Shown: in pieces, positions 84-5,367 of the stretch | How the letters are laid out: each line of letters begins with the position of its first letter | Numbering within the stretch: position 1 is the stretch's first letter | NCBI GenBank assembly: GCA_946500425.1 | Contig: CAMMVQ010000010.1 | Span: 1-44,493, forward strand | Origin: an uncultured Mollicutes bacterium | Lineage (GTDB): Bacteria > Bacillota_I > Bacilli_A > RF39 > UBA660 | Direction: 5' to 3' | DNA length: 44,493 bases | Position numbers and translations under genes: made by a program | The notes under the pieces: model-generated | Told to the model about the DNA's origin: nothing | What the model saw: only the letters and a program-made list of their open reading frames with translations | The model's database searches: none

Positions 84-713
84 TTATCCTTTAAACTTAA
101 GTGTTTTTTTCATAGCACTTTTTAAAACATCACTTGATTCTTTAAAATCAGTATCAATTACATAACTGCTAATATTTGTTTTTCTTATCAATTCATTAAA
201 ATAGTAATATTCAGCATTTACCTCATCCTCTACCTCCTTTATATTTTTATTACGCATAAAAGTTCCATAATCGAGATATCTTTTATATGCTCTTTCATAC
301 AAAACTTGCGGTGATGCTTTTAAGTATATAACTAAGGTTTGTATTTCATGTTCCAATAGCTTATTAAATAAATTATAATTAATAGCAGAAACATATGGTT
401 CATCAGGAAACTCTATATTAGGATTACCTGATGCGATAGCTGAATCTTTATAATGTTGTATAGAAAGATGTTGATCACCAACTGTAATATCATGATTACT
501 ACATACTTTACAAAAATAATCTTCAGCATCATTTGGAGCAATATCATAAAAAGCTCTATCAATTGATATATTTTTTTCTTTAGCCAAATCTATATATGCC
601 TTTGCTGGTTTATAATCATGTGCTGGTAAAGCGATACTCATATTTTTAACCAACGTACTCTTTCCAGAAGCTGCTGGTCCACTTACCATAACAAAAATAC
701 TCTTCTTTTCCAT
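84..713 (-). CDS. P-loop nucleoside/nucleotide kinase-like protein
   Basis: Walker A GPAASGKST near N-terminus; dNK/AAA-like length and layout. Confidence 0.7.
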   Translation of the reverse strand: MEKKSIFVMVSGPAASGKSTLVKNMSIALPAHDYKPAKAYIDLAKEKNISIDRAFYDIAPNDAEDYFCKVCSNHDITVGDQHLSIQHYKDSAIASGNPNIEFPDEPYVSAINYNLFNKLLEHEIQTLVIYLKASPQVLYERAYKRYLDYGTFMRNKNIKEVEDEVNAEYYYFNELIRKTNISSYVIDTDFKESSDVLKSAMKKTLKFKG

Positions 714-723
714 AAGTCCTCCT

Positions 724-1782
724 TTATTGCAGTTTTAAATTTTCTAATTCTTTAATTCTTACATCAATTTCATTTTTATATTTTTTATAATTTAGGTTTA
801 CTAATTCTTGTAATTTAGGTGTTAATTTATCAACATACTTATGTAATGCAATCAACATATCCGTTCTTCTTTCGTATTGAAATATATCTATCCTTGAAAA
901 CCAATGTTCTTCAATCAACTTATGCTGGTTATCAAATACTTTCGGATATTGATCAGAATAACCTGAAGCAACAAAAGCCACTTCTCTTTTAGCACAAGAT
1001 GAACAATTTTGACAATTACCATTATCACTATAACAGCTTACTGTTTCATTGGCATTCAAATATTTATCCCATTTTGCTTTCCATAAACATAATACTTCTG
1101 TCTTAGTCATTGTTACGAATGGCGAATATAACTGCACTCCAAAATACTTAACAAACTCATTATACATACGTATTGATTTGTCAGGAACAATCAACTCATC
1201 ACACAATCCTGCTAATACAATCTCCTTAGGATAAAAACAAAGGGCAATTGCTGATATCATTAAATTTCTAGCGGGGAATACATGACCAAATCTTTCTCCC
1301 CCGATTGCAATTAGATCAGATAAATCTAAAGTTGCTTCAATTAAAGTTACTTTTAACTTTTTACATATACTCTCTACCGCTTTTCTTTCTGGATTCCTAT
1401 ATGGTTGCCCATAATCACACCAAATAGCTATCGGGTTTTTACCAGTATCTATCATTTTTATTAAAGCGCCTGTTGAATCAACTCCTCCTGAAAAACACAC
1501 TAATACTCTATTTTTGAATTTGTCATAATAATGATTATTAGTATTTATAAATTTATCTCTTACTATTACTTGTGGAGTTTTCACTCCTTTAGGGTATGCT
1601 AATATATAAGTTAAAAAATCTCCCAATTCATTATTATCTGCATTTGTAGGATTATCTATTTCTATTTTTTCGGCATTTAAATAAGTCTCCTTAATAATGT
1701 AATAAAGATTATCTATTAATGCTGAAGAAACTGAAATTTCTTTTGATGAATCATTTTTCATGATTTTTACATTTACTTTCAT
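724..1782 (-). CDS. QueC-like ATP-PPase (7-cyano-7-deazaguanine synthase family homologue) with ~90-aa N-terminal extension
   Basis: PP-loop CFSGGVDSTG and four-Cys zinc motif CYSDNGNCQNCSSCAKR; start may be the internal ATG near 1761 because of overlap with the upstream gene. Confidence 0.8.
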   Translation of the reverse strand: MKVNVKIMKNDSSKEISVSSALIDNLYYIIKETYLNAEKIEIDNPTNADNNELGDFLTYILAYPKGVKTPQVIVRDKFINTNNHYYDKFKNRVLVCFSGGVDSTGALIKMIDTGKNPIAIWCDYGQPYRNPERKAVESICKKLKVTLIEATLDLSDLIAIGGERFGHVFPARNLMISAIALCFYPKEIVLAGLCDELIVPDKSIRMYNEFVKYFGVQLYSPFVTMTKTEVLCLWKAKWDKYLNANETVSCYSDNGNCQNCSSCAKREVAFVASGYSDQYPKVFDNQHKLIEEHWFSRIDIFQYERRTDMLIALHKYVDKLTPKLQELVNLNYKKYKNEIDVRIKELENLKLQ

Positions 1783-2566
1783 TTTTTATCCTCGCTTTCC
1801 AATATCCATATTTATAAGATGGTCTCCATATAAAGAAATGATATAAACTTGCACCTAAGCTATGTGTCAATTTATAACATTCATAAGCCCCTTTCAATTC
1901 ACTAAAAACAGATAAATCTTTCATTAAGCTTCTTTTACTATTTAGTCCATTTATTTCTTGTACAAACGTACCTAATCCCAATCTAATCGCAGATTTAGAA
2001 TCCTCTTTAAAAGTTAATGGCTTATGTAAAACTGATGATTTTGAAATAATATAATTTATATTATTTTCTTTTAATCGTTTTCTTTGGTCACTATCTTCTC
2101 CCCAATATAGATTTTCGTTAAATAATTTCCCTATATTTTTTTGAATTTCTAATCTAAATGCAAATGGCATTAATAACAATTTATCTGGAGTTGTATATTT
2201 TCTACATTTAGAAACAACTTTAGTAGAATAATTATAGTAATCAAAATTAATTGGAATATTAACAACATAATTATTTTCTAATTCTTTTTCAACCATTTCT
2301 ACTAAATTATTGCTAAGTACACAATCAGAATCAACGTAACATATAGCAGGAGTCTTACATTTTTCTACGGCAAGTTGCCTTAACTTACCAAGATTTCTTT
2401 CATCGCATCTATAAACACTTATTTGTTTATTGTTTTTAACCAAATTAAGTACATATTCATCAGGATAGTTTAATATCAATATGATTGGTACTTTACCAGG
2501 TATGCTTTCAAGACATTTTTTTAGCAAATGATCATCAGAACATATTATGGCAATTGATATTTTCAC
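1751..2566 (-). CDS. Family 2-type glycosyltransferase
   Basis: GT-A features: ERNLGKLRQLAV, YVDSDC (DXD), YWGEDSDQRKRL. Confidence 0.75.
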   Translation of the reverse strand: MKISIAIICSDDHLLKKCLESIPGKVPIILILNYPDEYVLNLVKNNKQISVYRCDERNLGKLRQLAVEKCKTPAICYVDSDCVLSNNLVEMVEKELENNYVVNIPINFDYYNYSTKVVSKCRKYTTPDKLLLMPFAFRLEIQKNIGKLFNENLYWGEDSDQRKRLKENNINYIISKSSVLHKPLTFKEDSKSAIRLGLGTFVQEINGLNSKRSLMKDLSVFSELKGAYECYKLTHSLGASLYHFFIWRPSYKYGYWKARIKNESKCKNHEK

Positions 2567-2567
2567 T

Positions 2568-3691
2568 TCAAATCACCTCATATTCTTTTATAGCTTTATT
2601 TTGAGTCTCAATACTCCAACTAGAAAAATATTTGCCATTTATTTTTTTACTTTTATCACATACTTTAGCAATATCACAACTTATTAATGCCAATCTGCAA
2701 CAATATATTGCCAAATCAGATATCATATTTATTTCAGCTTCATCATATAAAACTTTGTTACTAGATTCCATAATAGAAACATCATCAATTTTTCCTAGTA
2801 TGTATGCTATCGGATATAATATCATGTATAACAGTTGCTGTTCTGTTTCAGTTGAAGAATTTTTTTCAATTATGTCTATCATTTCATTTATACTATTATT
2901 TTTATTTAATAATAATTTTGATAATTTATTATATGGCTTTACTTTTTTATCGTATTTAATCAAATTATCAAATCTATTAATAATATCCTCATTTGATAAT
3001 ATCGCTCTCCATATTTGAAAACTATCTTTAATTTTCGAATCATTAGGTCTGTGTCTAGCAGGAAGAACTTCTACAAATGAAGTATTAATTTTCATATTAT
3101 TTTTTATTGCTAAAGATATAATATCCCATTCTCCACCCCAGTCATAATGATAGTTTTTGTTGTTAACTATCATATAGAGTTTATTTGTAACAGCTACCAC
3201 TGCTCCTGGAAAAGGTGTCAATAATACATCTTTATATTCCGGATAAAATAAATTAACAACCGTTTTACCTATTAATATATTACTTCTCCCTGCTGACATG
3301 CCGATATTTGGAATTAAAATATCATATTTATAATCCATTAATGTTAAAATTATATTTCTAACAAAAGAATAGTTTTTCTGTATGTTCCAATCAGAATCAA
3401 CAATTGCCACGTAAGGAATATTAAGTTCATATGCTTTATTAGTTATCAATGCAACACCATAGTTCTTGTTTGGAAAGATATCTATCTTGTTTTGAATAAT
3501 AATAACATTATTAATATTTTTTTAATATAGTTTATATTTTTATCATTATGTGTGTAATTCGCATCAAAGATGATAGGTAAAGTATCAAACCCAATCCTTG
3601 ATAAAGATCTTATTGATAATTTGAAAAATTCAACTAAATTTTCTACTGACTCATTTAGCCAACAAGTTCCCCATACTATCTTTTTATCCAT
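2568..3691 (-). pseudogene. GT-A glycosyltransferase split by a frameshift (ORF fragments 3482-3691 and 2568-3449)
   Basis: Adding one A to the A7 run (plus-strand T7 at 3517-3523) gives continuous ...NYIKKNINNVIIIQNKIDIFPNKNYGVALITNKAYELNIPYVAIVDSDWN...; DSD and DWGGEWD motifs downstream. Confidence 0.8.
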
Positions 3692-4352
3692 TTATTCTAT
3701 TCTCCGTTATATTTTCATATGATTTTACTTTTTTAACAAGTATGGTTGTTAACGGTAAGCATATAATTTCATATAAAGTTTTAAATACAACTTGTATGAT
3801 TATCATAGTAACAATCTGATTTAATGGTATCTTTCCTAAAAAAGCAACAAATACGAAAATCAATGAATCAGTTAATTCTCCAAATAACGTAGAGATTATT
3901 GCTCTAGTACTAAATCTATTATTTTTTTTACCTTTCATTTTTACCAATATTTTAGCATTTACTAATGAACCTAATAGATAAGCCATTAACCCAGCCAAGC
4001 AATTTCTAGGTGTAGAGCCAAGGATCAAAGCGAAACTATCGTTATTTTCAAACCATGTAGGCTAAGGTAACGCTATTGCTAATCCAAAGATTAGAACCAT
4101 GAATAAATTCATCAAAAATCCAAATACAATTAATTTTTTAGTTTTTTTGAAACCATAAACTTCAGAAAAAATATCATTAATAATATATGATATAGGAAAC
4201 ACTAACACTCCAGCGGTAACTGAATAATTATTTCCTATTTTTAATAGTTTAGCTGCTAAAATATTAGATAGTAATAAGCATACTACAAATAAAATAGATA
4301 ATGCTAAATACAAACCTGAATACTTCTCTTTTGAATATTTCATTTCTTTCAT
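3684..4352 (-). pseudogene. YhhQ/VUT-family queuosine-precursor transporter-like protein interrupted by in-frame TAG
   Basis: ORFs 4062-4352 and 3684-4028 are in one frame: ...GLAIALP-TAG-PTWFENNDSFALILGSTPRNCLAGLMAYLLGSLVNAK...; stop at plus 4062-4064. Confidence 0.8.
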
Positions 4353-4359
4353 ATTAACT

Positions 4360-5226
4360 TCACTCCTTAAATCTTTTTAAATAATAGTTTTTGTTCATAT
4401 TACAGTCTTTGCAACAATCTATGCTGTCATAATCCCCATAAGCTATATGCTCTTGTATCTTTTTCATTTCTTTTCCATGCCATATATCATATATACTTTT
4501 TTCATATACATTTCCAACAATATTTTGATAATTCCAATCTCTGCAACAAATTATTACATTACCATTAGAACTTATAACCATTTGATCCATCGGCCTATCG
4601 CAAGGCCCTACATAATGAATAGAATCAATCACTCCATTATAGATGTCATCTATTTTCCAATTTTCCTTATACTCTAAATCCCATTCACAAATTAAATACT
4701 TACCTAATTTTTCTTTCATTAAATCGTGATCATAGTATTTAGTTTTAGGTACCGCAATTCTTATCATTTTACACAATTCTTTATCTTCTATTTTTTCTAA
4801 TAATCCCAGAAGTTTTTCAAGAGAAACACCCATAATTTCTTTGTAATTCTCTTTATTAATAGTAGGAATACTTATATATAAAGTTGTTAATCCTACCGCC
4901 TTTAATTCTATTAATTTATCCATTGTTAATAATATTCCATTTGTAGAAAGAGTAATTTCTGTATCTTTAAGATTTTCATGTGCAAATTTTATAAATTCAC
5001 AAATCCTATAATCCAATAATGGTTCGTTATTATTAAACAAAGTAATTCTTTTAACTTCATGATTTGACATTTCTTTAATTAACTCTTTAAATCTTTCTAT
5101 ATCAAAAAAGACGGGTTTTTCATTTTTCCTTATTCTTGTATAAGGGCAAAATTTACAATTTCCTTGGCATAAATTCAAGGTTTCTATTAATATAGACTTT
5201 GGAAAATCTAAAGCAACTGTACGCAT
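4360..5226 (-). CDS. Radical SAM protein with SPASM-type C-terminal Cys region
   Basis: CQGNCKFCPY (CxxxCxxC); C-terminal GNVIICCRDWNYQNIVGN...CCKDCNMN. Confidence 0.85.
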   Translation of the reverse strand: MRTVALDFPKSILIETLNLCQGNCKFCPYTRIRKNEKPVFFDIERFKELIKEMSNHEVKRITLFNNNEPLLDYRICEFIKFAHENLKDTEITLSTNGILLTMDKLIELKAVGLTTLYISIPTINKENYKEIMGVSLEKLLGLLEKIEDKELCKMIRIAVPKTKYYDHDLMKEKLGKYLICEWDLEYKENWKIDDIYNGVIDSIHYVGPCDRPMDQMVISSNGNVIICCRDWNYQNIVGNVYEKSIYDIWHGKEMKKIQEHIAYGDYDSIDCCKDCNMNKNYYLKRFKE

Positions 5227-5243
5227 ATTATCCCCCTATATAT

Positions 5244-5280
5244 AAAAAAAGGTGGCAAAAACACTAAAGTGTTTGCCACC
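5244..5280 (-). terminator. Intrinsic terminator in the 5' leader of the radical SAM operon
   Basis: Minus strand GGTGGCAAACACTTTAGTGTTTTTGCCACC followed by T7, just upstream of the start codon. Confidence 0.8.
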
Positions 5281-5367
5281 ATGAAAATACTGCCACCATC
5301 TGGGCAAACACATCACCCAAATTGATTTAATTGCTTTTAAAATACAGTATTTACTATATAATGTCAA
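5251..5367 (-). promoter_or_regulatory. Promoter plus transcription-attenuator/riboswitch-like leader
   Basis: TTGACA (5367-5362) - 17 nt - TATTTT (5344-5339); GTGTTTGCC (5311-5303) complements GGCAAACAC (5277-5269), which is also in the terminator 5' arm. Confidence 0.6.

Follow-up and report, generated by a model that had tools for sequence, protein, structure and literature searches.

A putative transcription attenuator RNA before interchangeable operons for accessory biosynthesis in uncultured gut Bacilli of one family

A short leader on the minus strand of the window (the whole stretch of 44,493 nucleotides analysed here) is probably, at roughly 70%, a cis-acting transcription attenuator RNA that, in uncultured gut Bacilli of one family, precedes interchangeable operons for accessory biosynthesis. 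In the focal leader and its relatives an intrinsic terminator is located between the promoter and the first gene, and the 5' arm of this terminator contains one strand of a competing antiterminator, the other strand of which lies within the loop and 3' stem of an upstream hairpin, S1 (Table 1). The promoter, the TGGG/CCCA hairpin, the 9-nt pairing, the terminator, the T7 run and the direct repeat that a sequence-only reading had assigned were all recovered on the minus strand exactly where it placed them.

Table 1. Positions of the leader, the operon behind it and a second leader remnant in the window.
Feature	Position	Strand	Detail	Basis
Promoter	5339-5367	-	TTGACA 5367-5362, 17-nt spacer, TATTTT 5344-5339	sequence
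Hairpin S1	5298-5322	-	ATTTGGG 5322-5316 : CCCAGAT 5304-5298	sequence, folding, covariation
S1 inner pairing		-	TGGG 5319-5316 : CCCA 5304-5301	sequence
Antiterminator 5' strand	5303-5311	-	GTGTTTGCC, within S1 loop and S1 3' stem	kept in 16 leaders
Antiterminator 3' strand	5269-5277	-	GGCAAACAC, part of terminator 5' arm	sequence, comparison
Region containing direct repeat	5273-5299	-	ATGGTGGCAGTATTTTCATGGTGGCAA, contains ATGGTGGCA	invariant, six genus leaders
Direct repeat	5299-5291 and 5282-5274	-	ATGGTGGCA	sequence
Intrinsic terminator	5244-5280	-	arm GGTGGCAAACAC 5280-5269, arm GTGTTTTTGCCACC 5264-5251, T7 5250-5244	folding, relatives
Radical SAM/SPASM gene	4360-5226	-	first of operon; ATG 5226; ribosome-binding site GGGGG 5236-5232	
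Vut_1/YhhQ-type queuosine precursor transporter gene	3684-4352	-	in-frame TAG at 4062-4064	
Frame-shifted gene	2568-3691	-	break near 3480 (ORFs 3691-3482, 3449-2568)	
Family 2 glycosyltransferase	1751-2566	-		
QueC-like protein	724-1782	-		53 bits vs QueC equivalog cut-off of 150
P-loop kinase-like protein	84-713	-		all matches below cut-off
Second-leader remnant	39365-39408	-	5' part GCAATTAAATCAATTTGGGTGCTAGTGTTT running straight into terminator 3' arm and T-run after loss of about 45 nt	

The two antiterminator strands are perfect complements over 9 nt by inspection, and a perfect 9-nt complement of the terminator arm arises by chance within the upstream 55 nt in 172 of 20,000 dinucleotide shuffles (0.9%). 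Folding gives -16.6 kcal/mol for the terminator (z -4.6 against shuffles) and -29 kcal/mol for the whole leader (z -4.2). The promoter match is, taken alone, weak evidence for a promoter, with 11 promoter-like matches observed in 1.2 kb and 8.4 expected; most relatives have TTGACA and a -10 region at the same distance as well, and the position between promoter and first gene is the same in nearly all leaders compared. The elements stand beyond chance decisively because the same parts recur, with compensating changes, in homologous leaders, where the terminator is also kept.

Comparison of 16 leaders from 15 genomes shows, as far as aligned sequences can, that both the S1 and the antiterminator pairings are maintained across genera. 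In the antiterminator helix 94.9% of cells are paired (13 distinct rows), as against 22-58% when the helix is slid, and double changes occupy four cells in four leaders (G-C to A-U in G018 and G006, G-C to U-A in G069 and C-G to U-A in G205), a number matched by 1 of 500 shuffles. In S1, TGGG:CCCA becomes TAAG:CTTA in G205, and S1 and S2 together are 87.9% paired with 11 double-change cells, which 1 of 500 shuffles reaches; two S2 pairs are broken in G152, and likewise in G084. In a separate permutation test the values were 0.006 (antiterminator) and 0.03 (S1), and all of these counts derive from segments cut by hand, an S1 register picked by eye and 16 related leaders, with antiterminator partners that are also constrained by the terminator. 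Eight sequences alone, before the other genera were joined, gave no significant excess of covariation. The sequence-only reading had named a pairing lost among homologues as the outcome that would speak against it, and the alignment gave the opposite, a conserved antiterminator pairing with covariation. Covariation is seen in S1 and in stem 2 alike, and the two helices have CC in common with the longer antiterminator; either S1 and the antiterminator exclude one another, or they stand together in an H-type pseudoknot, for which the possible geometry has a loop 1 of 1-6 nt, a loop 2 of 0 nt and a stem 2 of 5-7 bp.

Pseudoknot-free folding of growing transcripts of the 16 leaders gives the antiterminator a probability above 0.5 in 13 of them at the completion of its 3' strand (0.56 in the focal leader), and at full length a probability of 0 in most leaders and of 0.78-0.95 in G018, G440, G205 and G069; within the genus the terminator wins in the full-length transcript. 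This points to an antiterminator that in most cases forms early and later gives way to the terminator, the computed default of the focal leader being termination. For an attenuator of this kind, the promoter would place the start of transcription about 13-20 nt before S1, S1 is computed to form next, and the antiterminator, or a pseudoknot between S1 and the terminator arm (computed, and conserved), would form as the terminator 5' arm emerges. Upon emergence of the 3' arm the terminator is predicted to displace the antiterminator unless the latter is held, and we suggest that a shared factor or state could hold it, whereby the polymerase would pass and the operon be expressed. The holding agent would presumably be common to all operons, a protein, an RNA or a polymerase state being likelier than each operon's own product.

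Within the genus, which includes Candidatus Aphodocola excrementigallinarum (Bacilli; G001), the leader is found in 7 of 18 genomes, one of which (G015) has two. Mean identity between loci is 91% over the leader, 73% over the promoter and 60-66% over the flanks, indicating conservation of the leader rather than of a common chromosomal place. Indeed, the genes that follow are entirely different between loci: FolE2, a GTP cyclohydrolase II-like protein and Q_salvage in G001; HAD-HMGL, a cytidylyltransferase and NUDIX in G004; SDR, HAD, a carbamoyltransferase and NUDIX in G008; a short peptide, radical SAM/SPASM, HelD and HAD in G012; a C39 peptidase, YcaO, radical SAM, NUDIX and an S51 peptidase at the first G015 locus (G015a); a guanylate kinase-like protein, a methyltransferase and a Schlafen-type helicase at the second (G015b); and a short peptide with unannotated genes behind it in G006. 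The leader had been read as serving the radical SAM-QueC operon in particular, a view that is not supported, as operons of eight or more unrelated types have it in front of them. A pattern derived from the leader retrieved seven true leader loci from 264 Gb of genomes and one false positive inside a CapA-like gene (L071); phage, plasmid and viral-contig searches gave no match. A 64-aa protein ending NGGILIVGMIIVIVGLxGFIxTKNxN is encoded near two leader loci, upstream of the leader at L022 and downstream at L024, and is adjoined at both by a second membrane protein.

The focal operon itself cannot be compared across genomes, since its radical SAM protein has no homologue at E <= 1e-30 among 361 genomes. 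The idea that a recoded TAG keeps the YhhQ gene intact was rejected, as TAG terminates 8 other ORFs of the window, including genes of 320 to 727 codons. With TAG an ordinary stop in the focal genome, the TAG and the frameshift mean that this copy of the operon may be decaying, or that two bases of the MAG consensus may be erroneous. The ORF at 3449-2568 has no match in Pfam or NCBIfam, and is called glycosyltransferase-like solely by eye and by neighbourhood.

Covariance models, together with a search using the G012 radical SAM protein, identified diverged leaders in eight further genera (G018, G152, G433, G440, G205, G069, G469 and G084), and in G236 a shifted antiterminator only, S1 being absent. 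Weaker covariance-model matches (L061, L063, L065, L066, L085, L086 and L088-L096) were judged on reading to be plain terminators or chance. One common peptide operon is present at seven leader-bearing loci (G012, G018, G440, G205, G069, G469 and G084) and as a variant in G236, its peptide ending GYDGCGTHTHK; G503 and G185 have a homologous peptide operon and lack the leader. G433 and G152 share an SDR operon with G008. The peptide/radical SAM/HelD operon, scattered across genera, is apparently an undescribed RiPP-like operon, and the radical SAM/SPASM protein in it comes nearest to HxsB. The conserved short peptide itself, KNDIVKNLK...KISFGNKIGLGYDGCGTHTHK (L084, L087, L099, L102, L105 and relatives), is followed by the radical SAM/SPASM protein and the HelD gene. 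The peptide gene is flanked by a strongly conserved 12-bp inverted repeat, ACACAACATAGG before and CCTATGTTGTGT after it (L098-L107), the left copy of which also forms a CATAG-GAAA-CTATG hairpin.

No Rfam family matches the window (scanned at gathering thresholds), the leader (E up to 10) or 12 homologous loci; on the leader this relaxed limit brings up a spurious microRNA on the opposite strand and nothing else. The preQ1 covariance models of all Rfam classes are unmatched, for the leader also when E values as high as 10 are admitted, as is the T-box model; Stem I and the T-box bulge are absent and the RNA is too short. At its thresholds, Rfam thus excludes the described riboswitch classes and T-boxes, which bears out the earlier view that no preQ1 class I/II or T-box consensus is present and brings up no known class with a different ligand; as far as Rfam and the literature searched show, the leader would be the first described member of its leader family.

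A riboswitch that binds a metabolite, either a 7-deazapurine (preQ0, preQ1 or queuine) or a guanine nucleotide, through an H-type pseudoknot aptamer like that of preQ1-I, would be compatible with the pseudoknot geometry and with the focal QueC-like and YhhQ genes, the FolE2, GTP cyclohydrolase II-like and Q_salvage genes of G001 and the guanylate kinase-like gene that comes first in G015b. It is nevertheless unlikely, as the RiPP-like/HelD, YcaO, SDR/carbamoyltransferase and HAD-HMGL/cytidylyltransferase operons contain no 7-deazapurine or guanine genes, no Rfam match is found, and the would-be aptamer loop is unconserved across genera. The region of ATGGTGGCAGTATTTTCATGGTGGCAA is not conserved outside the genus except in G433, and the loop between the antiterminator strands is likewise conserved in the genus and G433 only, which counts against one common metabolite aptamer. 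Genes linked to 7-deazapurines occur in two of the eight operon types (the focal operon and the FolE2/Q_salvage operon of G001), and queuosine biosynthesis or transport genes do not run throughout the leader-bearing operons, so the proposed 7-deazapurine ligand finds no support and the signal is probably not a queuosine precursor. The terminator, the competing antiterminator and the overlapping hairpin stand; a riboswitch is a candidate only, the loop that would serve as aptamer being conserved just within the genus and G433.

The leader could instead sense polymerase inhibition, a slowed or stalled RNA polymerase shifting the race between antiterminator and terminator and so inducing operons that would encode polymerase-hitting products together with HelD as immunity. 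The strand exchange is kinetic in the folding of growing transcripts, and a HelD-type RNA polymerase recycling motor is encoded in two unrelated leader-bearing operon types, in G012 (519 bits, cut-off 419) and G152 (402, just below), in both cases in addition to another HelD elsewhere. We consider this improbable: HelD was not found in the operons of the focal genome (G000), G001, G004, G008 and G015, and solitary HelD genes have no leader, most leader-bearing genomes encoding HelD elsewhere without one. The link of HelD with polymerase inhibition is no more than a lead. It is equally doubtful that the leader defines a new RNA class through which antibiotic-like operons, unrelated and exchangeable, answer to a common signal; inhibition of RNA polymerase could be that signal, and HelD would then confer immunity in some of the operons. 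In the focal genome a shift of frame and several stop codons disrupt the HelD gene (L142, G000:C36, contig about 4810-6823).

Leader and cargo seem to travel together into recurrent sites, because the same hybrid histidine kinase directly precedes intact leaders with three different cargoes in G004 (61% identity), G012 and G433. The second-leader remnant of the window likewise lies directly behind the hybrid histidine kinase gene (39474-41279), and looks like a deletion between two GTGTTT stretches. This recurrent kinase, and near-identical DNA followed by unrelated cargo, would also be expected of a DNA-level element, in which a conserved promoter and terminator mark a cassette-exchange site without RNA switching. 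That explanation is unlikely, as the RNA pairs show compensating changes across genera and conservation of the leader exceeds that of the promoter or flanks.

One terminator-bearing leader before long operons of unrelated content would equally fit the logic of a target for a specialised NusG-family processive antiterminator (LoaP/RfaH), as in antibiotic and polysaccharide operons, and GGTGGCAGTAT differs at two positions from the ops consensus. This is very unlikely, as each of the 18 genus genomes encodes exactly one NusG-domain protein, none scoring over the RfaH cut-off, and the UNCG hairpin is absent, the focal leader containing no CG dinucleotide at all; a LoaP- or RfaH-type paralogue is excluded as far as the draft genomes go. 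Ribosome-mediated attenuation via a leader peptide whose frame has two adjacent Trp codons (MVAVFSWWQTL or MCLPRWWQYFHGG) can be dismissed almost entirely, since the frame ATG-GTG-GCA-GTA-TTT-TCA-TGG-TGG across the terminator 5' arm, shared by the focal genome and five genus relatives, has no ribosome-binding site, carries two second-codon-position changes in G433 (Ala to Val, Ser to Leu) and a stop in G006, and is absent from other genera, no leader ORF in any frame being conserved among the leaders.

If the attenuator reading is right, uncultured gut Bacilli have an entire set of operons for accessory biosynthesis that a single small RNA element both marks and controls. This would represent attenuation across a regulon in the absence of the NusG paralogue that commonly performs such a task. 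The leader can also be used to search genomes for new gene clusters, such as that of the KNDIVKNLK...GYDGCGTHTHK peptide, its radical SAM enzyme and HelD.

The leader resembles T-boxes in the choice between terminator and antiterminator in Bacillota leaders, but has no Stem I (S1 lies about 13 nt from the likely RNA start), T-box sequence or Rfam match. With the preQ1-I riboswitch (PMC11625349) it shares small size, a possible H-type pseudoknot and, in the focal operon, a queuosine-precursor transporter, whereas it lacks an Rfam match, its loop is unconserved across genera and most leader-bearing operons are without queuosine genes. Mutually exclusive hairpins that exchange during transcription are likewise known from classical terminator/antiterminator attenuators, as in the yxjA-type strand exchange of the purine riboswitch (PMC9756952), in contrast to which the leader has no recognisable aptamer and is common to operons of unrelated content. 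Like the LoaP-controlled leaders of the Bacillus velezensis dfn and mln operons (PMC12691694), it is short, combines a small RNA structure with an intrinsic terminator and precedes large operons of different product. In place of the NusG paralogue and the UNCG hairpin that is a feature of LoaP leaders (PMC12691694), the leader described here has an antiterminator strand that is the complement of part of the terminator arm.
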